Shown: positions 9,926 to 18,210, counted from the stretch's first letter. The stretch: DNA of 34,589 bases from an uncultured Clostridia bacterium (GCA_947626305.1 CANQRP010000006.1:1-34589), one strand, 5' to 3'. Translations and numbers: made by a program. The notes: generated by a model not told the origin, from the sequence alone.

Positions 9926-10612
9926 TCAGAATTGTGTTTTTACCACCCGCTTTCCGTCCGAGCCGTCTAAAAGCCATACTTTTCCGCCGCCCGAGAGGGT
10001 ACTTCGCGGCTCGCCGTTGACAAACTCCAACGCCGCGTCGTTTTCGAACCCCCATGCGCGGAGCTTGTTTTTGAGAACGATCCCGTCGAATTCCGCCGCC
10101 CGCTCGTTGTAGTGGGGGCAGGCGACGCCCTTCAACCATCCGAGCCCGGGATACATGGCGTATTCCCCCTCGACGACCGAATCGGAATACATCTCCTCAA
10201 ACCAGCAGATCGCCCCCGCCGAGAGCCCCGCAAGGAGCACGCCGCGCAAATAAGCCTCTTCGATGAGCGGGAGAAGCCCGCTTCTCTTCCAATGTTCGAG
10301 CATGAACACGGTGTTGCCGCCGCCGACATAGAGAAAGTCGGCTTTTTCGAACTTTTCCTTCATTTTTCCGAAGTCCCACTCCCTGTTTACGGTGAGCGCG
10401 ACATCCGTCTTTACCCCGTAAATGCCCGTATAGACTTTATGGAAGGTATTGTAGTAGGGCATGCAATCGTGGCTTGCCGTGGGAAGGAACAGCCCACACG
10501 GGCGTCGCTCCCCCGCCGCTTTCTTCGCTTCCGCGGCGATGGAGGCGTCGATTTCGAGCGTCTCTTTGCTTTTGAGTTCTCCCCCGCCGATGGCGACAAT
10601 GCGTTTATCCAT
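9926..10612 (-). CDS. pepE: Peptidase E-like serine peptidase (family S51, 228 aa)
   Basis: MDKRIVAIGGGEL is the usual N-terminus of Clostridial S51 members. The segment FLYVGGGNT (93-101) precedes the nucleophile elbow AGLSAGA with Ser131. S51 includes dipeptidase E, which cleaves Asp-Xaa dipeptides, and cyanophycinases; the 228-residue length without a signal peptide fits the cytosolic dipeptidase class. Downstream residues (CPHYNERAAEFDGIVLKNKL) match the conserved part around the catalytic His. Its ATG overlaps the end of the PII-like gene by eight bases (ATGGATAA), so it is translationally coupled to that nitrogen-sensor-like protein. Confidence 0.9.
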   Translation of the reverse strand: MDKRIVAIGGGELKSKETLEIDASIAAEAKKAAGERRPCGLFLPTASHDCMPYYNTFHKVYTGIYGVKTDVALTVNREWDFGKMKEKFEKADFLYVGGGNTVFMLEHWKRSGLLPLIEEAYLRGVLLAGLSAGAICWFEEMYSDSVVEGEYAMYPGLGWLKGVACPHYNERAAEFDGIVLKNKLRAWGFENDAALEFVNGEPRSTLSGGGKVWLLDGSDGKRVVKTQF

Positions 10613-11450
10613 TCTTCTGTTCGAGTTCCTCCGTCTCTTTGTGCAATTCCGCTTCGTCCGCGGCGGAAATGCCCACGGTCCGATCCACGGGCAAAGAGAA
10701 GATCACGCCGCCCGCCTCCGTTTTTAAGCCGACGTTTTCGGAGAGTGCGCGCATGATGGCAAGTTTGCTCTCCCGCTTGGCGAGAATGAGTAAAATTTCC
10801 TGCTCCCGCGCGAGCGTGATGCCGATGAACTGCTCCGCTTTGTCGTTTTCGAGGGCGCGTGCCCGCAGAATGGTGCCGCCCGCGGCGCCTGCCGAGCGCG
10901 CCGCTTCCATCGCCTCGTCCACTCTGCCCGCTTCCACCGCGGCTACAATGAGGTCGTATTTTCTTTCCTGATTCGTCATCGTCTTTTTTCCCTCCGCCGT
11001 TTTGTTTGTCGCCGCTTTCAAAAGTCCGTTCGCCGTGATCTCGGAGATCCCCGTCAGGGGGACGGTGAATGAGATCCCCTTCCCGACAAGATAGAGCGCC
11101 ATTTTCGCATGGAGCACCCGCATGATCGCATCTTCATCGCTCTCCGGGATGAGGGAGACGACGACCGCCTTCGTGCTCTCGCCGATCCCCAAATAGTCCA
11201 AAAGTTGCGAGCGCGCGGTCCCCGTGCCCGCAAAGGTGAACGAGAGCGCGACGGATACGTCGTCCAGGATCTCTTTGAAGTTCCCTTCGTCGGAGGGGTT
11301 CACCACGCCGAACAGCAATTTGACCCGCCCCGGCTTTTTGGGCGCAGGGGGCTTGACGCCGATCTTCCCGCCCACTTTTTCGCCCGCCGCCAAAAAGGTA
11401 TGAACGATCTGTGCGGCGGGATTGTTCTTTGTGTCGTGTTTCTCGCTCAT
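10605..11450 (-). CDS. Protein with two tandem PII-like domains
   Basis: Two similar halves are visible. In the first (about 43-136) KLLFGVVNPSDEGNFKEILDD leads through GTGTARSQLLDYLG to GKGISFTVPLTGIS. In the second (about 163-262) KYDLIVAAVEAGRVDEAMEAARSAGAAGGTILRAR leads to REQEILLILAKRES and GGVIFSLPVDRTVG. The GT(x)RA turn, the EILLIL strand and the GxxFxxPVxxxVG end are PII (GlnB/GlnK) fold hallmarks. The T-loops are short and no uridylylation Tyr is seen. The start overlaps the DUF1538 stop by ATGA and its own stop overlaps pepE. It likely senses a small ligand and controls the partner membrane protein; that is inference from context. Confidence 0.8.
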   Translation of the reverse strand: MSEKHDTKNNPAAQIVHTFLAAGEKVGGKIGVKPPAPKKPGRVKLLFGVVNPSDEGNFKEILDDVSVALSFTFAGTGTARSQLLDYLGIGESTKAVVVSLIPESDEDAIMRVLHAKMALYLVGKGISFTVPLTGISEITANGLLKAATNKTAEGKKTMTNQERKYDLIVAAVEAGRVDEAMEAARSAGAAGGTILRARALENDKAEQFIGITLAREQEILLILAKRESKLAIMRALSENVGLKTEAGGVIFSLPVDRTVGISAADEAELHKETEELEQKNG

Positions 11451-12991
11451 GCGTCCACCTCATATTCGAGGATCCGATCCTCCACGGAGAGAAAGTTTCG
11501 CCGGATGCGGCGGGTCTTGCGCTGATAGACGATCCCCAAGATCTGAATGGAGATCAGCGGAGTGAGCGCGACGAACGCCACACAGCCGAATGCCTGCGTC
11601 ATGATGTTCGCCGTACTGCCGCCGCTCAGCGTATAGCACGCCCCCACCGCGAGCGGGAGGACAAAGGAGGAGACCATGGCGCCGCTCGCCACGCCGCCCG
11701 AGTCGAATGCAATGCCCGTAAACATGGGCGGGGTGAAGAATGTGAGAACGAGAGCGAGCGCATAGCCGGGCAGCAGGATATACATGATATTGATCCCCGT
11801 CAGAATGCGCAGCATGGCGAGCCCGAGGGAGATGCAAACGCCCGCGCAGAGCCCCCTCTTCATGGACTTTGCGCCGATCGCGCCCGCGGAAATGCGCTCC
11901 ACCTGCTTATTGAGCACGTGAACGGCAGGTTCCGCAGCCACCACAAAATAGCCGATGAGCATGCCCACGGGGATGAGCAACCACCCTCCCCAAAGGTTTG
12001 CGAGCTGCTCTCCGATGGCTCTGCCGACGGGCATAAAGCCGACGTTCGCCCCCGTCAAAAAGAGCGCGAGCCCCAAAAACGTATAGGCAAACCCGACGAA
12101 AATGCGCACCATCTGGCGTTTTCGAAAGGCGCGGGTGAAGAGTTCGAACCCGAGGAAGAACAGGAGCACGGGAGTGAGGGCAATGAGAACTTCGGTGGAA
12201 TAATCGGAAAAGCCTTTCAGATAGAGAAAGAGCATTCCGTAGGTATTGGCGGGAAGATCGGGCTCCGCGTTGTAGGGGTAATCGAGACCGCCGATCTGAA
12301 ACACGATGCCGAGGGTCAGAACGGCGATGATGGGTCCCACGCTCGAAAGCGCAACGAGTCCGAAGGAATCCGCCTGTCCCTTTTCGTCGCTTCGGATGGA
12401 GGCGACGCCGACGCCGAGCGACATGATGAAGGGCACCGTCATCGGTCCCGTCGTGACGCCGCCCGCATCGAACGACACCGCCCAAAAATCGGGCGAGACG
12501 AAGATGCTCAGCACGAATGCCATCACGTAAAATCCGATGAGCAGAATGCTCAAACGGATATGGAATACGATGCGGAGCATGGCAAACATGAGAAAGACGC
12601 CCACGCCGACCGCCACCGTGAGAATGAGCAGATAGTTGCCGAGGACGGTGCGGTCGGACAGGCTCTTGACCTGCGCCGCGAGAATTTGAAGATCGGGCTC
12701 CGCGACGGTGACGATGATGCCGATGACAAAGGAGACGAGCGCGATCAACCAGATCTTGCGGGAATGCGTGATGGAAGAGCCGATCTTTTCGCCGATGACG
12801 AGCATGGACATATCCGCGCCCAAGGTAAAACAGCCCATCCCGAAGATGAGCAAAAAGACGCCCACGACGAAGAGGATGAAAACGCCCGCATCCAACGGCG
12901 CCACCGTGAGCGAGAGCGCCGCGATGATGAGGGCGATCGGCAGGATCGAGGTGAGCGATTCCACAATTTTTTCTTTGAGTGCCAACGTCAT
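11447..12991 (-). CDS. DUF1538 multipass membrane protein (two repeats, 514 aa)
   Basis: About 12 or more hydrophobic helices are arranged as two homologous halves. Each half carries a VAEPxxxxL motif (VAEPDLQIL and AAEPAVHVL) and a following FDxGGVxxG motif (VSFDAGGVTTGPM and IAFDSGGVASGAM). This duplicated arrangement is typical of DUF1538 proteins, proposed to be transporters of unknown substrate. The paired conserved Asp and Glu residues in membrane segments are candidates for ion or substrate coordination. It begins one base after the rpiB stop and overlaps the PII-like gene by ATGA, so the two are probably made together. Confidence 0.88.
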   Translation of the reverse strand: MTLALKEKIVESLTSILPIALIIAALSLTVAPLDAGVFILFVVGVFLLIFGMGCFTLGADMSMLVIGEKIGSSITHSRKIWLIALVSFVIGIIVTVAEPDLQILAAQVKSLSDRTVLGNYLLILTVAVGVGVFLMFAMLRIVFHIRLSILLIGFYVMAFVLSIFVSPDFWAVSFDAGGVTTGPMTVPFIMSLGVGVASIRSDEKGQADSFGLVALSSVGPIIAVLTLGIVFQIGGLDYPYNAEPDLPANTYGMLFLYLKGFSDYSTEVLIALTPVLLFFLGFELFTRAFRKRQMVRIFVGFAYTFLGLALFLTGANVGFMPVGRAIGEQLANLWGGWLLIPVGMLIGYFVVAAEPAVHVLNKQVERISAGAIGAKSMKRGLCAGVCISLGLAMLRILTGINIMYILLPGYALALVLTFFTPPMFTGIAFDSGGVASGAMVSSFVLPLAVGACYTLSGGSTANIMTQAFGCVAFVALTPLISIQILGIVYQRKTRRIRRNFLSVEDRILEYEVDA

Positions 12992-12992
12992 T

Positions 12993-13445
12993 TTACTTCA
13001 TGTACTTCTTTTCGATCGCCGCGATCTTATCGATGCGGCGTTGATGTTTTTCAAGCCCCGAAAACTCCGTTTCGAGAAAGGTCTTGGCGATGTTCAGCCC
13101 GAGATTTACGCCGACGATTCCCCCGCCGAGGGCGAGCACGTTGGCATTGTTGTGTTCGCGGGTAAGACGGGCGCAGGTCTCGTCCGTGCAGAGCGCGCAT
13201 CGGATCCCGGGCACCTTGTTGGCGGCAATGGAGATCCCGATGCCCGTGGTGCAGACGAAAATACCGCGGTCGCACTCCCCTTTCGCAACCGCTTCCGCGC
13301 CGCGGAGGGCGAAGTCGGGATAGTCGCACGAACAGTCGGTCGTCGTGCCGAAATCCACCGCCTCGTAGCCGTTGGCGGCAAGATACTCCGCGATCTTGTT
13401 TTTGAGGGCAAGTCCCCCGTGATCGCATGCAAGCGCAATTTTCAT
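12993..13445 (-). CDS. rpiB: Ribose-5-phosphate isomerase B
   Basis: MKIALACDHGGLALKNKIAEYL with the ACDHGG motif, the catalytic Cys in VCTTGIGISIAANK and REHNNANVLALGG are the signature blocks of RpiB (LacAB family). The enzyme interconverts ribose-5-phosphate and ribulose-5-phosphate in the non-oxidative pentose phosphate pathway. The start at 13445 has AGGAG seven bases upstream; the track's ATG at 13451 is too close to that RBS. The 150-residue length is normal. It follows the arginine-phosphatase-like gene by 15 bases, matching the ywlC-ywlE-ywlF order known from Bacillus. Confidence 0.96.
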   Translation of the reverse strand: MKIALACDHGGLALKNKIAEYLAANGYEAVDFGTTTDCSCDYPDFALRGAEAVAKGECDRGIFVCTTGIGISIAANKVPGIRCALCTDETCARLTREHNNANVLALGGGIVGVNLGLNIAKTFLETEFSGLEKHQRRIDKIAAIEKKYMK

Positions 13446-13460
13446 GATCATTCTCCTGTT

Positions 13461-13937
13461 TTATTTCGTTCCGCTCTCTGAGGTCGGGCAATAGCGCTCG
13501 ATGATGAGCGGCAGACATTCCCGGATGCGGCGCAGAGTCACGCGGTATACGTCGATATCCTGCCCGTAGGGGTCGGGGATCTCCCTGCCGCACAGCAGCG
13601 GAAAACTCGTGACATTGGGATATTTATCGAGCGCAAGGCGGTGCCGTTCCGTCATACAGACGACGAGATACGCCCCGCGCACCGTTTTTTCGGTGAGCTG
13701 CTTCGGCTTGAAACTCTTATTCACCGAGATCTTCGCCTCCGAAAGCGCCTGTGCGCTGTGCGGGGAGAGCACGCTCCCCGCCTCCACGTTCAATCCCGCG
13801 GAACTCACCTGATAGCCCGAAATTTTGCGGCGGCGGAGCTCCTTCCGAAGCGCCGCTTCCGCCATGGGCGAACGGCAGGTATTCCCCGTGCAGACGAAGA
13901 CGATCTTTTTTTTAGGTTCAGCTTTCTTTTGTTCCAT
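13461..13937 (-). CDS. ywlE: Low-molecular-weight phosphatase, probable protein-arginine phosphatase (YwlE type)
   Basis: The P-loop is VCTGNTCRS: nucleophile Cys16, Thr20 and Arg22. Thr in the CxxNTCR position is the residue associated with phosphoarginine specificity in Bacillus YwlE; ordinary tyrosine phosphatases have Ile or Leu there. The general-acid loop DPYG is present near the C-terminus. A ten-residue N-terminal extension (MEQKKAEPKK) precedes the first strand. The gene overlaps tsaC by 20 bases, with GGGGTGG as RBS. YwlE opposes the McsB arginine kinase in protein quality control; no mcsB is in the window, so that link is family knowledge only. Confidence 0.88.
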   Translation of the reverse strand: MEQKKAEPKKKIVFVCTGNTCRSPMAEAALRKELRRRKISGYQVSSAGLNVEAGSVLSPHSAQALSEAKISVNKSFKPKQLTEKTVRGAYLVVCMTERHRLALDKYPNVTSFPLLCGREIPDPYGQDIDVYRVTLRRIRECLPLIIERYCPTSESGTK

Positions 13938-14928
13938 GTTCCACCCCGAAGGCGCGCTTCATGCGGTTCATGACCCCCGCCATGACGCCTCCTTTTTCCC
14001 GCGGCTCGATGCCGATGAGCAGCGTTGCCTGCTGTTCGCCCTTGCGCAAAAGCGCATACAGCCGCCGCGCCATTTCTTCGGGCGTCCTCCCCAAGTCGAG
14101 CGTGCGAAAGCCTTGCAAGAGCGCGCAGACTTCGCTCTCGCACAAAAAGCAGGGCGCGCCGCACGCTTCCTCCTCCCGGTAGCAAGCGACCGCTTTTTCG
14201 AGCTCTTCGCGCGGAAAGTACGCCGTTTTGCAGCGGGGAGAATAATGCTTATACGCCATGCCGGGGCTTTTGGGGCGTTCCCCCGATTTCGCGTGGTACA
14301 CCCCGCACTCCCCCACCGCTTCCACGATCATCTCCCGCGTGACGAGCCCTTCGCGCAAGATCTGCGGGATGTCTCCCGTGCAGTCCAAAACGGTACTCTC
14401 GATGCCGCTGCTGCAAGCCCCGCCGTCGAGAATGAGGGGGATCTTGCCGTTGAAATCGTCGAAGACGTGCCGTGCGGTGACGGGCGAGACATGCTTGGAG
14501 AGGTTGGCGCTCGGCGCCGCGATCGGCAGGTCCGCCGCCTTCAAAAACGCCTGTGCCGTCGGCGAAGAGGGCACGCGGATCGCGAGGGTATCGAGCCCGC
14601 AGGAGACGTATTTCGACACCTTTCCCGTCGACGGATACACCATCGTCAAAGGTCCGGGCAGAAAGGCGCGCCGAAGCGCCGCGGCATAGGGCGGCTCCCC
14701 GTCGATGAGAGGGGAAATGTCATAGTCCTTATGGACGTGCACGATGAGCGGATTGTCGGCGGGGCGCCCTTTGAGCGCAAAAATTTTGAGCACCGCTTCA
14801 TCCGAAAGGGCGTTCGCGCCCAACCCGTATACCGTTTCGGTGTGAAAGGCGACGACTTCGCCCGCCTCGATCAATGTTTTTGCCCGATCGAGCCACCCGC
14901 GCGAGCGGCTCACGATGTTTGTTTCCAT
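13918..14928 (-). CDS. tsaC: L-threonylcarbamoyladenylate synthase, Sua5 type
   Basis: The N-terminal ~200 residues are a YrdC domain (AGEVVAFHTETVYGLGANA, KGRPADNPLIVHV, FLPGPLTMV, APSANLSKHVSPVTARHV). The rest is the Sua5 domain introduced by PKSPGMAYKHYSPR, so this is the long Sua5 form (336 aa). It makes threonylcarbamoyl-AMP from Thr, bicarbonate and ATP for t6A37 modification of ANN-decoding tRNAs. The ATG at 14928 lies two bases after the dnaB stop; the track start at 14934 would be a TTG overlapping it. It is coupled to the ywlE-like and rpiB genes downstream. Confidence 0.95.
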   Translation of the reverse strand: METNIVSRSRGWLDRAKTLIEAGEVVAFHTETVYGLGANALSDEAVLKIFALKGRPADNPLIVHVHKDYDISPLIDGEPPYAAALRRAFLPGPLTMVYPSTGKVSKYVSCGLDTLAIRVPSSPTAQAFLKAADLPIAAPSANLSKHVSPVTARHVFDDFNGKIPLILDGGACSSGIESTVLDCTGDIPQILREGLVTREMIVEAVGECGVYHAKSGERPKSPGMAYKHYSPRCKTAYFPREELEKAVACYREEEACGAPCFLCESEVCALLQGFRTLDLGRTPEEMARRLYALLRKGEQQATLLIGIEPREKGGVMAGVMNRMKRAFGVEHGTKES

Positions 14929-14930
14929 GA

Positions 14931-16382
14931 TCAATCAAACGGGAGATCGTCGGTCGGCTCGGCGGGAGCGGACAGTTCGGCGTCCTCCGGCGTCATAAAG
15001 TCGGGTTTCTTCTTGATGTATTGCGGTTCCTCGTCCGAGACGCCCTGCGCGTCGACGTCGATGAACTTGGTGCTCTCGCCGATAAAGCGGAGCTGGATGC
15101 GCCCCGTTGCGCCGTTTCTGTGCTTGGCGATGACGAGTTCCGCCGCCCCCTTTACCACTTTTCCGCTTGCCATATCCTCGGGAGAGGCGCCCACATCGGG
15201 ACGGTTGATGAACATGACGATATCCGCGTCCTGTTCGATGGCGCCCGATTCGCGGAGATCGGAAAGCTGCGCCTCCTTCGTCTGGATGCGGCGGAGCTGG
15301 GAAAGCGCAATGACGGGAACATCCAATTCCTTTGCCATGATCTTGAGGGCGCGCGTGATGCTTGCGACCTCCTGTTGGCGGTTGAAGTCCCCGCCCGCGG
15401 GCGTCTCCGACCCCATGAGCTGGATGTAGTCGATCATCACGACGTCGAGCCTGCCCTCCGCGCTCTTCAATCTTCTGCACTTGGAGAGGATCTCCGCGGG
15501 CGTGACGACGGACGAATCGTCGATGAAAATTTTGCTCTTTTGCAGGCGGTCGCTTGCGGCGGCGAGATTTTTCCACTCTTTCGACGAAAGTTTGCCCGAA
15601 AGCCCCTTCTCCATGCTCACTTCCGCATAGGAGAAGAGCAACCTCTGCAAGATCTCGGTATAGGGCATTTCGAGCGAGAACACCGCGGCGACGTTGTGCC
15701 GTTTGAGGCAGGCGTATTCGACGATGTTCATGGCAAGAGAGGTCTTTCCCATGCCGGGGCGGGCGGCAATGATGACGAGATTCCCCTTTTGCAGCCCGTG
15801 GGTCATCTGGTCGAGCCGCTTGAATCCCGTTTCGAGCCCGCGGAAGGCGTTGGGATCGCTCTCGATCGCCTCGAGTTTGTTGATGACCGCCTGTACGGCA
15901 ATGCCGTCCGCAAGTCCCCGCAGGGTGGAATTGTCTTCCCGCTGCGAGACGTCGTAAACCTGTTTTTCGGCGTACTCGATCGCCTCCCGTTCCTCGGGCG
16001 ACCTCGTGCTGTTTTCCGCGATATTCTTTGCCGCACGGATGAGCGCGCGGTTCACGGAGTCGCGGCGCACGATTTCGAGATATTGGCGATAGTTGGCGGC
16101 GGAGGGAACGCCCTGCGCCAACCCGGTGATATAATCGAGCCCGCCCGCCTCCTCAGATCTTCCCTCCCGTTCGAGGTGGTCGCTGAGCGTAACGACATCG
16201 ACGGGTCGTCTCCCGCCGTACACCGCCTTCATGGCTCTCACGATCACGCGGTGAGACTCCTGGTAAAAGTCCTCCTCCCGCAGCGCTTCGAGCACGTCCG
16301 ATTGGATGCTTTCGTCGATGAGGATGCTTCCGAGCAGCGCCGATTCCGCGTCTAAATTGTGCGGCATTTGATTGTTTGGCAT
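14931..16382 (-). CDS. dnaB: Replicative DNA helicase DnaB
   Basis: An N-terminal DnaB domain (MPHNLDAESALLGSILID) and linker are followed by a RecA-like helicase domain with Walker A ARPGMGKTS (about 207-215), Walker B VVMIDYIQLM, and the H4 region SQLRRIQTKEAQLSDLRESGAIEQDADIVMFI. This is a full-length (483 aa) hexameric fork helicase. The start is the ATG at 16382 with GGGAG upstream; the track's start at 16394 is a TTG that precedes the RBS. It has no intein. It follows pepF by 58 bases and is nearly contiguous with tsaC. Confidence 0.97.
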   Translation of the reverse strand: MPNNQMPHNLDAESALLGSILIDESIQSDVLEALREEDFYQESHRVIVRAMKAVYGGRRPVDVVTLSDHLEREGRSEEAGGLDYITGLAQGVPSAANYRQYLEIVRRDSVNRALIRAAKNIAENSTRSPEEREAIEYAEKQVYDVSQREDNSTLRGLADGIAVQAVINKLEAIESDPNAFRGLETGFKRLDQMTHGLQKGNLVIIAARPGMGKTSLAMNIVEYACLKRHNVAAVFSLEMPYTEILQRLLFSYAEVSMEKGLSGKLSSKEWKNLAAASDRLQKSKIFIDDSSVVTPAEILSKCRRLKSAEGRLDVVMIDYIQLMGSETPAGGDFNRQQEVASITRALKIMAKELDVPVIALSQLRRIQTKEAQLSDLRESGAIEQDADIVMFINRPDVGASPEDMASGKVVKGAAELVIAKHRNGATGRIQLRFIGESTKFIDVDAQGVSDEEPQYIKKKPDFMTPEDAELSAPAEPTDDLPFD

Positions 16383-16440
16383 ATGTTCTCCCAAAAGACA
16401 AGTATTCGTCAGACCGTTCGGGTCCGAAAAAGGCGGTCGC

Positions 16441-18210
16441 CTATTTGATGCTTTCGAATTCGCCGAGCGCTTCTTCGAACTCCTTCATGGCGGCAAGGAA
16501 GGTCCCCTCCTCGGTGAGGTCCGCTCCTGCGATCTTCAAGAGGGACACGGGGTCGGTGGAACAGCCGCCCGACAGGAACTTGAAATAGTTCTTCACCGCG
16601 GGTTCCCCTTCCGCAAGGATCTTGTCTGCGATGCAAATGGCGGCGGTGATGCCCGTTGCATATTTGTACACATAGAAGGAACGGTAGAAATGCGGGATGC
16701 GCGCCCACTCGATGGCGATGTTGTCGTCATGGACGACCGCTTCGCCGTAATACTTTTCGTTGAGCGAGCGGTAGAGCTCGGTGAGGTTATCTTTGTTGAG
16801 CGGCTCCCCGCCCTCCGCCATGGCATGCGCCTTCTCTTCGAATTCGGCGAACTGGGTCTGGCGGAACAGCGTTGTGCGGATCATGTCGATGAAATAGTTG
16901 AGAAGATACTTCCTGAGCTGTTTTTCCTGCGTGGTTTTGAGCAGATATTTGAGCAGGAGCACCTCGTTGACCGTGCTGGCGACTTCCGCTACGAAAATTT
17001 TGTAGTCCGACTTTGCGTACGGCTGACAGCTGTTGGAGAAGTAGGAGTGGATGGAGTGCCCCATTTCATGCGCAATGGTGAATACGTCGTGCGCGGTCTT
17101 CTGATAGTTGAGCAGAACAAACGGATGGTTGCCGTAGATGCCGATGGAATAGGCGCCGCTCCGCTTGCCCTCCGTCTCGCAGACGTCGATCCAGCGTTCG
17201 TCTCTGCCGCGGCGGAGGAGCGCGTTGTATTCCTCGCCGAGGGGAGCAAGTCCTTTGAGCACGAGGTCGTATGCCTCTTCATAGGAGAGTCTGAGTTCGG
17301 CGTCCTCCACAAGGGAGGGATAGATGTCGTACATATACATCGTGTCGAGCCCCATGAGCTTCTTGCGGAGGGCGATGTAGCGGTGCATGACGGGGGTGTA
17401 GTCGCCGACGACCTTGACGAGATTGTCGTACACGCTGCGGTCGACGTCCTCTTCGAAAAACGCCATTTCGAGGCAGGAGCGGTACCCGCGCACCTTCTGG
17501 TAGAACATATCCTTTTTGACGTTGCCGAAGTAGGTCGTCGCCAAAGTGTTGATGATGTTGCGGTAGGCGGAATAGTAGAGTTCGTACGCCTCCTTGCGCT
17601 TTGCGCGGTCTTTTCCGTTGAGGATGACGGAATAAAGTCCGTGCGAGAGGCGCACTTTCTTGCCTTCGTACTCGATTTCAGGCAGGTTGAGTTCGGCGTT
17701 GTCGAGCATTTCGAACACGTCGCCCGCGGTGGAGAGTGCCTCGCCCGTCTGCGCCAGGATGCGCTCCTCCTTTTCGGAGAGAACATGCTCCTTTTGCGCC
17801 TTGATGCGGGAGAGCATATAGTCGTGATCTTTGAGACGGGGGTCTGCGATGAAGGCTTCGAGCGCTTCGTCCGAAAGCGCGGTGAGCTCGGGAGTGACAA
17901 ACGCGGTCTCCTCGTCGAGGCGGGTGAAGAAGTTCATCACGCGGGCGATGTAAGCGTTGTATTTTGTCTCGCGGACATCTTCATCGTGCTTCATGAAGGC
18001 ATAGAGATACACCCGCATGGCGTCGATCACGAGCGCTTCTTCGACATCGAAGAAAGCAAGGAGTCCCTCCACGCTGCCGAGGGTGCCCTTGTATTTTGCG
18101 AAGTCCAATCTGCCTTCGAGCGCGGAGAAGGCGGCTTCCCACTCTTCGTCGCTTTCGAATACGTCCGAAACTTTCCATTTGTACTTTTCCTGTACGTCCT
18201 TTCTTTCCAT
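16441..18210 (-). CDS. pepF: Oligoendopeptidase F (M3B metallopeptidase)
   Basis: The 589-residue protein carries the zinc site HEMGHSIHS at about residue 380 and the third ligand Glu in the segment FVAEVASTVNEVLLL. The N-terminus (YKWKVSDVFESDEEWEAAFSALEG) is the standard start of PepF. It hydrolyses medium-length peptides in the cytosol. The upstream RBS is modest (AAGGAAAT). It is the first gene of the long minus-strand run. Its only visible promoter candidate is at 18396-18423, so its transcript would begin inside the inverted-repeat-rich interval. Confidence 0.96.
   Translation of the reverse strand: MERKDVQEKYKWKVSDVFESDEEWEAAFSALEGRLDFAKYKGTLGSVEGLLAFFDVEEALVIDAMRVYLYAFMKHDEDVRETKYNAYIARVMNFFTRLDEETAFVTPELTALSDEALEAFIADPRLKDHDYMLSRIKAQKEHVLSEKEERILAQTGEALSTAGDVFEMLDNAELNLPEIEYEGKKVRLSHGLYSVILNGKDRAKRKEAYELYYSAYRNIINTLATTYFGNVKKDMFYQKVRGYRSCLEMAFFEEDVDRSVYDNLVKVVGDYTPVMHRYIALRKKLMGLDTMYMYDIYPSLVEDAELRLSYEEAYDLVLKGLAPLGEEYNALLRRGRDERWIDVCETEGKRSGAYSIGIYGNHPFVLLNYQKTAHDVFTIAHEMGHSIHSYFSNSCQPYAKSDYKIFVAEVASTVNEVLLLKYLLKTTQEKQLRKYLLNYFIDMIRTTLFRQTQFAEFEEKAHAMAEGGEPLNKDNLTELYRSLNEKYYGEAVVHDDNIAIEWARIPHFYRSFYVYKYATGITAAICIADKILAEGEPAVKNYFKFLSGGCSTDPVSLLKIAGADLTEEGTFLAAMKEFEEALGEFESIK

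Follow-up and report, generated by a model that had tools for sequence, protein, structure and literature searches.

We have investigated the pairing of a DUF1538 membrane protein with a PII-like protein at a locus within a 34,589-nucleotide stretch of DNA from an uncultured Clostridia bacterium (GCA_947626305.1 CANQRP010000006.1:1-34589; the whole stretch is referred to as the window), extending an earlier note which interpreted these two genes and the adjoining peptidase gene pepE as one coupled unit. DUF1538 and a PII subfamily form a near-obligatory and specific pair across very distant bacteria and archaea. We consider it probable that the pair is a transport-control module, in which a dedicated PII-type regulator would bind a cation/proton antiporter and gate it in response to an effector, and the first interpretation of the locus is partly supported. 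The window genome is a 74%-complete draft and most comparison genomes are likewise drafts. The features of the pair are as follows, with branch support given by the Shimodaira-Hasegawa-like approximate likelihood ratio test (SH-aLRT).

11447..12991, minus strand: fused UmpA-UmpB-type integral membrane protein with two DUF1538 domains, 514 amino acids, predicted monovalent cation/proton antiporter (Pfam, NCBIfam, all-helical model)
12302..12937, minus strand: first DUF1538 domain, UmpA-type (PF07556 E 5.2e-68; clusters with separate umpA genes, SH-aLRT 99)
11528..12169, minus strand: second DUF1538 domain, UmpB-type (PF07556 E 1.6e-66; clusters with separate umpB genes, SH-aLRT 99)
11447..11450, minus strand: ATGA stop-start overlap of the antiporter and PII genes (read from the sequence)
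10605..11450, minus strand: tandem PII-like regulator, 281 amino acids (model, Foldseek matches to GlnK, Pfam P-II E 3.2e-4)
11040..11330, minus strand: PII domain 1, about residues 41-137, fast-evolving (strand 43-50, helix 52-64, strand 69-77, strand 92-102, helix 103-116, strand 126-131)
10650..10970, minus strand: PII domain 2, about residues 161-267, better conserved (subfamily profile E 6e-37; strand 165-173, helix 177-186, strand 193-198, strand 216-225, helix 226-240, strand 249-255)

Co-occurrence in other genomes, on which the earlier note had staked its reading, was assessed in 399 genomes of the phylum with the PII subfamily called at E <= 1e-6. DUF1538 is present in 135 genomes and the PII subfamily in 142, 133 of which contain both (133 both, 2 DUF1538 only, 9 PII only, 255 neither; Fisher p 5e-92, relatedness ignored). 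One of the two DUF1538-only genomes, G308, is accounted for by a contig end, while the other, G082, contains a broken gene with six stop codons. This pseudogene (L155, G082:C1:2161174-2161630) lies in a genome devoid of any PII subfamily member and represents joint decay of the pair. The nine PII-only genomes comprise two in which PII stands beside a CitMHS permease, one fragment and six members of a different PII-like group.

Physical linkage of the two genes is also consistent. Among 30 loci fetched via DUF1538 in the phylum sample, PII lies directly downstream in 29, the remaining locus stopping at a contig end. A wider scan of 80 loci covered Bacilli, Clostridia, Balneolia, Desulfovibrio, a Spirochaete, Aminicenantes and methanogenic archaea; eight loci were cut at contig ends and 69 of the 72 informative loci have PII directly downstream. 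The gene order A-B-PII occurs without exception, with one or two PII domains, and no other neighbouring gene recurs in more than 5 of 54 loci. A one-frame (Rosetta-stone) fusion of DUF1538 with PII was looked for and none was found. When PII starts are predicted by a simple start-codon rule in 86 other loci, they overlap the DUF1538 stop in 63 and lie inside the upstream gene or within 30 nucleotides of its end in 83; in the window, GAGGTGG is located a few bases 5' of the PII ATG. Conserved adjacency and gene overlap across loci thus bear out the coupling of transporter and PII claimed in the earlier note.

The same order is observed on plasmid records of Chelativorans, Methylocystis, Peptoclostridium, Vescimonas and Paraclostridium, in which the genes are annotated as 'DUF1538' and 'P-II family nitrogen regulator'. 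Two umpA-umpB-PII examples (L131, L132) reside on large alphaproteobacterial plasmids, that of Chelativorans being conjugative and that of Methylocystis adjoining insertion sequence elements, and show the module to be mobile.

Within the window's genus, the pair is gained or lost as one. G009 (99% complete, L158) and G002 (95%, L159) lack both DUF1538 and PII and retain pepE, and in both genomes pepF, dnaB, sua5, a low-molecular-weight tyrosine phosphatase gene, rpiB and pepE are contiguous, without exactly the DUF1538-PII pair. As the string is otherwise intact, DUF1538-PII is a two-gene cassette. This arrangement also decides the status of the third gene, which had been included in the unit.

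9926..10612, minus strand: pepE-like S51 peptidase, a neighbour judged to lie outside the unit (Peptidase_S51 Pfam E 1.2e-32)

Only in the window's genus does pepE lie 3' of the PII gene, no pepE homologue was seen in 54 wider loci, and the gene stays beside rpiB where the pair is missing; pepE is therefore incidental to the module. The reported overlaps, ATGA between DUF1538 and PII and then ATGGATAA between PII and pepE (10605-10612), are present in the sequence, with all three genes on the minus strand. The window contains, at 9926-18210 on the minus strand, a compact string of pepF, dnaB, sua5, the tyrosine phosphatase gene, rpiB, DUF1538, PII and pepE, in which several joints overlap and rpiB is separated from DUF1538 by 1 nucleotide. 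As the entire string is densely packed, the PII/pepE overlap counts for little, and overlap by itself is a poor guide to function here.

The membrane protein exceeds the Pfam cut-off for DUF1538 (PF07556) by a wide margin, with two domains (438.5 vs 22.6 bits, E 3.8e-132). It also matches the NCBIfam models for UmpA (NF041627, E 2.7e-46) and UmpB (NF041628, E 1.2e-33), reaching 157.8 and 116.6 bits against equivalog cut-offs of 490 and 500, respectively, and appears from these scores to be an UmpAB relative and no certified equivalog. Its substrate had been described as unknown; the family, however, includes a characterised pair of DUF1538 proteins, Halomonas zhaodongensis UmpA and UmpB, which jointly catalyse pH-dependent Na+(Li+,K+)/H+ antiport as a heterodimer in which both subunits are required (Meng et al. 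2017, PMC5484666). Both domain types, UmpA and UmpB, are joined in one chain in the window protein, as indicated by the domain tree, and by analogy with this relative the window protein may likewise perform antiport. The duplicated AEP and FD-GGV motifs proved real, being invariant in a 42-sequence alignment (E98-P99/E354-P355; F174-D175..G178/F429-D430..G433), and further paired conserved positions occur in both halves (R140/R395, Y155/Y410). Invariant acids at matching sites in each half (E98/E354, D175/D430) are a feature that one might look for in an ion translocator composed of two homologous parts. Helices make up the whole of the AlphaFold model, which is confident (predicted local distance difference test, pLDDT, 88.8; predicted template modelling score, pTM, 0.88). 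Sequence and profile searches found no relative of DUF1538 among solved structures, and a fold search of solved structures returned no convincing relative (best E 0.03, template modelling scores, TM-scores, of about 0.2 or less). The sole profile match, TrwL (E 0.045), was judged to be due to chance.

The two-fold architecture ascribed to both partners (DUF1538 twice, PII twice) is confirmed, but its explanation as parallel internal duplications is not, as the halves are ancient paralogues which are separate genes in many organisms. The DUF1538 halves occur as separate genes in the order umpA then umpB, and a tree of 81 domains, built by a quick method, places the first halves with separate UmpA sequences and the second halves with separate UmpB sequences (SH-aLRT 99 on each side). 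The Balneolaceae fusions L077 and L080 fall apart from the main Clostridia fused group, suggesting that fused forms arose at least twice. PII domains also divide into position-1 and position-2 groups, with weak basal support (78). Position 1 evolves much faster than position 2, and window PII domain 1 clusters with separate PII-1 genes, again with weak basal support. Both window genes thus look to be fusions of ancient paralogues, A/B and PII-1/PII-2. Four loci (L141, L142, L143, L144) contain one-domain DUF1538 genes standing alone, each with a single PII, possibly reflecting the state which preceded the A/B duplication.

Domain numbers of the two partners agree. Every fused antiporter with downstream sequence (52 of 52 loci) is accompanied by two PII domains, encoded by two genes in five loci and by one gene otherwise; lone DUF1538 genes have a single PII in 4 of 4, and separate umpA-umpB pairs have one or two. 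In these counts L019 was placed among the fused antiporters, its gene running past the edge of the fetched sequence, and L082, L099 and L132 were hand-read as single PII; since the loci are related, the counts are not independent events. Of the suggestion that matched duplication might reflect a stoichiometric complex, the agreement in domain number stands, but the counts do not fix a complex.

Assignment of the downstream protein to PII required more than a fold search. In the AlphaFold model (pLDDT 84.1, pTM 0.76) both halves have the order beta-alpha-beta-beta-alpha-beta, preceded by a disordered N-terminal extension of about 40 amino acids and followed by a C-terminal helix. Foldseek matches include GlnK and PII chains, with a TM-score by target of up to 0.76 for GlnK1 (2j9d_H). 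The top E-values, however, belong to other ferredoxin-like proteins, and the fold search alone is therefore insufficient. The Pfam P-II family (PF00543) matches the window protein in its C half only and does not reach the gathering score (21.4 vs 25 bits), which members of the same subfamily elsewhere pass at 27-41.8 bits. PII identity is settled by sequence, because the subfamily profile matches solved PII proteins (best E 1.2e-6) and the separate-gene homologues of both halves in G394 are P-II in Pfam (39.1 and 32.9 bits vs 25). The PII fold proposed for the tandem protein is thus upheld by the model of both halves, the GlnK fold matches, the subfamily profile and the separate-gene homologues.

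In contrast to the fold, the residues characteristic of canonical PII are missing. In an alignment of 22 family rows with E. coli GlnB, Tyr51 is deleted in all 22 rows and the T-loop is about 6 residues shorter, in agreement with the previous argument that short T-loops speak against uridylylation. The Lys90 position is Ile, Leu or Val in 22 of 22 rows, the Arg101 position is Gly in 21 of 22 with Arg101 absent from all, the Gln39 position is His in 16, and Arg103 is not conserved, nor is it among the common residues. The protein is therefore not expected to bind ATP/2-oxoglutarate in the canonical manner or to be uridylylated. The subfamily possesses its own motif, GRGTGIHE..KLxGIPIEPEKE, which is partly lost in the window's genus.

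A second membrane partner was observed for the same subfamily. Four intact, strong PII loci have no DUF1538 neighbour, those in G412 and G365 and second copies in G347 and G279, and in each a single-domain PII stands directly before a permease of 443-448 amino acids (CitMHS E ~1e-90, ArsB E 1e-20 to 1e-25).

L136-L139 (G412:C1:1182910, G365:C1:3271783, G347:C3:399005, G279:C109:76797): single-domain PII directly before permease

The best NCBIfam relative of these permeases is MamN, NhaB/NhaD being weaker, and we take such CitMHS/ArsB/NhaD-like permeases to belong to the ion transporter superfamily that includes the NhaB and NhaD Na+/H+ antiporters. As all strong DUF1538-free members precede a CitMHS/ArsB-like permease, the subfamily goes with antiporter-like membrane proteins. 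Two unrelated partners of this kind provide the best, albeit indirect, argument that PII acts on the transporter, and single-domain PII with a CitMHS/ArsB/MamN-like permease is apparently a second, undescribed PII-transporter pair. Six weak profile matches without DUF1538 (E 1e-6 to 1e-10) represent a different PII-like group, and one further match is a fragment. Members of this different group (L149, L151-L154), in genomes without DUF1538, have the sequence LVLNKT...GVRGATIxNSTGMGR....

Combined, these results point to the pair as a widespread switch for ion and pH balance. In the mechanism that we propose, the membrane protein would be a fused UmpA-UmpB heterodimer acting as a monovalent cation (Na+/Li+/K+)/proton antiporter, and the co-translated tandem PII protein its dedicated cytoplasmic regulator. 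The PII folds would assemble so that the clefts between domains accommodate a small effector, and the protein would dock through its short T-loop region on the cytoplasmic side of the antiporter, opening or closing it, much as GlnK acts on AmtB and SbtB on SbtA. The module would probably serve to match ion/pH homeostasis to a metabolic or second-messenger signal rather than to sense nitrogen via ATP/2-oxoglutarate or uridylylation. Direct binding is a precedented mode of control, as PII proteins gate AmtB, SbtA and the two ABC transporters NrtABCD and UrtABCDE in this manner (PMC10710835). Physical binding of PII to the antiporter, the direction of control (inhibition or activation) and the response to a ligand are the inferred parts of this scheme.

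Several observations weigh against this proposal. The window protein scores so far under the UmpA and UmpB equivalog cut-offs that a substrate can be transferred at the family level only. UmpAB is active in E. coli without cloned PII (PMC5484666), and 3 of the 72 informative wider loci, in Metabacillus and two Sutcliffiella (L063, L073, L078), contain umpA-umpB only; PII is therefore dispensable for transport. PII control seems limited to transporters able to work as trimers, according to a 2023 review (PMC10710835), and since UmpAB is reported as a heterodimer the module either breaks this rule or hides a higher-order assembly. Finally, adjacency does not prove contact. Because UmpAB is active by itself in E. 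coli and Sutcliffiella has PII-free loci, our guess is that PII restrains rather than enables transport. The PII-free Metabacillus and Sutcliffiella pairs represent natural controls for an unregulated antiporter.

Three other explanations of the pairing were considered. In the first, the module is the same and PII is a receptor for cyclic diadenosine monophosphate (c-di-AMP), or another adenyl nucleotide, tying the antiporter to a potassium/osmotic messenger as in PstA/DarA or SbtB. SbtB binds c-di-AMP, and cyanobacterial c-di-AMP pull-downs caught the Na+/H+ antiporters NhaS5 and NhaS2 (PMC10117731). Diadenylate cyclase (PF02457) is present in 19 of 20 pair-bearing genomes, including 11 of 11 genus members and 3 of 4 archaeal genomes, but also in 11 of 14 control genomes, and its co-occurrence therefore does not discriminate. 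Against a c-di-AMP receptor, the PstA/DarA Pfam family (PF06153) gives no match to the window PII protein at E 0.5, and the pair is present on alphaproteobacterial plasmids, in hosts not known for c-di-AMP. We regard this specific explanation as somewhat unlikely, c-di-AMP being a reasonable candidate ligand. In the second, the PII-like protein acts on an enzyme or regulator elsewhere and is only co-expressed with the antiporter; contact cannot be read from adjacency alone and antiporters without PII do exist, but a direct target is favoured by the one fixed gene order across phyla, the lack of both genes together in a string that is otherwise complete, the rarity of any third recurrent gene and the second antiporter-like partner, and mere operon partnership is improbable. 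The third, a nitrogen module in which DUF1538 carries a nitrogen compound and PII senses ATP/ADP and 2-oxoglutarate, was suggested by the earlier note by analogy with AmtB-GlnK. PII membership and an operon with a membrane protein do resemble glnK-amtB, but this explanation is very hard to sustain given that characterised DUF1538 proteins carry alkali cations (PMC5484666), the canonical residues and long T-loop are gone, searching five genus genomes with the Pfam P-II model returned the window-type protein or nothing and no other PII, and only 3 of 11 genus genomes yielded AmtB.

The proposed gating of the antiporter by PII has consequences for annotation and for PII signalling. 'Nitrogen regulator' is probably a wrong annotation for window-type PII in many genomes, and the only characterised DUF1538 antiporter, UmpAB, was studied without a regulator of this PII kind. 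If PII gates the antiporter, PII signalling extends beyond nitrogen and bicarbonate uptake to Na+/K+/H+ balance, with a reach that would include gut anaerobes, salt-loving bacilli and methanogens. The module offers a direct test of whether PII control requires trimeric transporters, and a structure of the complex would reveal both an antiporter fold and a form of control that are new, because DUF1538 is without a confident solved relative. A fuller reading, which we hold as possible rather than probable, is that this is a widespread undescribed module in which a PII subfamily that lost the ATP/2-oxoglutarate site and doubled to a two-domain (pseudo-heteromeric) form would directly gate UmpAB-type antiporters as well as, in certain genomes, a CitMHS/NhaD-like permease unrelated to them; ion/pH homeostasis would then answer to a new PII ligand, and the partner need not be a trimer, contrary to the current rule.

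The DUF1538-PII pair is apparently undescribed, each component being known and their names already adjacent in databases; no literature linking DUF1538 or UmpAB with PII was found in open-access papers, subscription papers and preprints being outside the scope of the search. PstA/DarA, which in Bacillota connects c-di-AMP with ion homeostasis, shares the PII-like fold of the regulator but belongs to another Pfam family. PstA has a long B-loop and a short T-loop, and we know of no transporter partner encoded alongside it. UmpAB shares family PF07556, the profile matches and the order of A- and B-type domains with the window protein, in which, however, A and B are fused, the scores fall far under the equivalog cut-offs and a PII gene is coupled, the UmpAB paper mentioning none (PMC5484666). 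The cyanobacterial bicarbonate system SbtA-SbtB similarly combines a PII-fold protein with a Na+-linked secondary transporter outside nitrogen uptake; in contrast, the window PII is tandem, its ligand-site residues are unlike those of canonical PII, and no relation between the transporters was found by sequence or fold. AmtB-GlnK differs in that the window PII is duplicated, has a short T-loop and lacks both the uridylylation tyrosine and the ATP-phosphate residues, and its partner is no ammonium channel; the two systems are nevertheless alike as operons of a membrane transporter and a PII protein, in which docking at the cytoplasmic face is likely.

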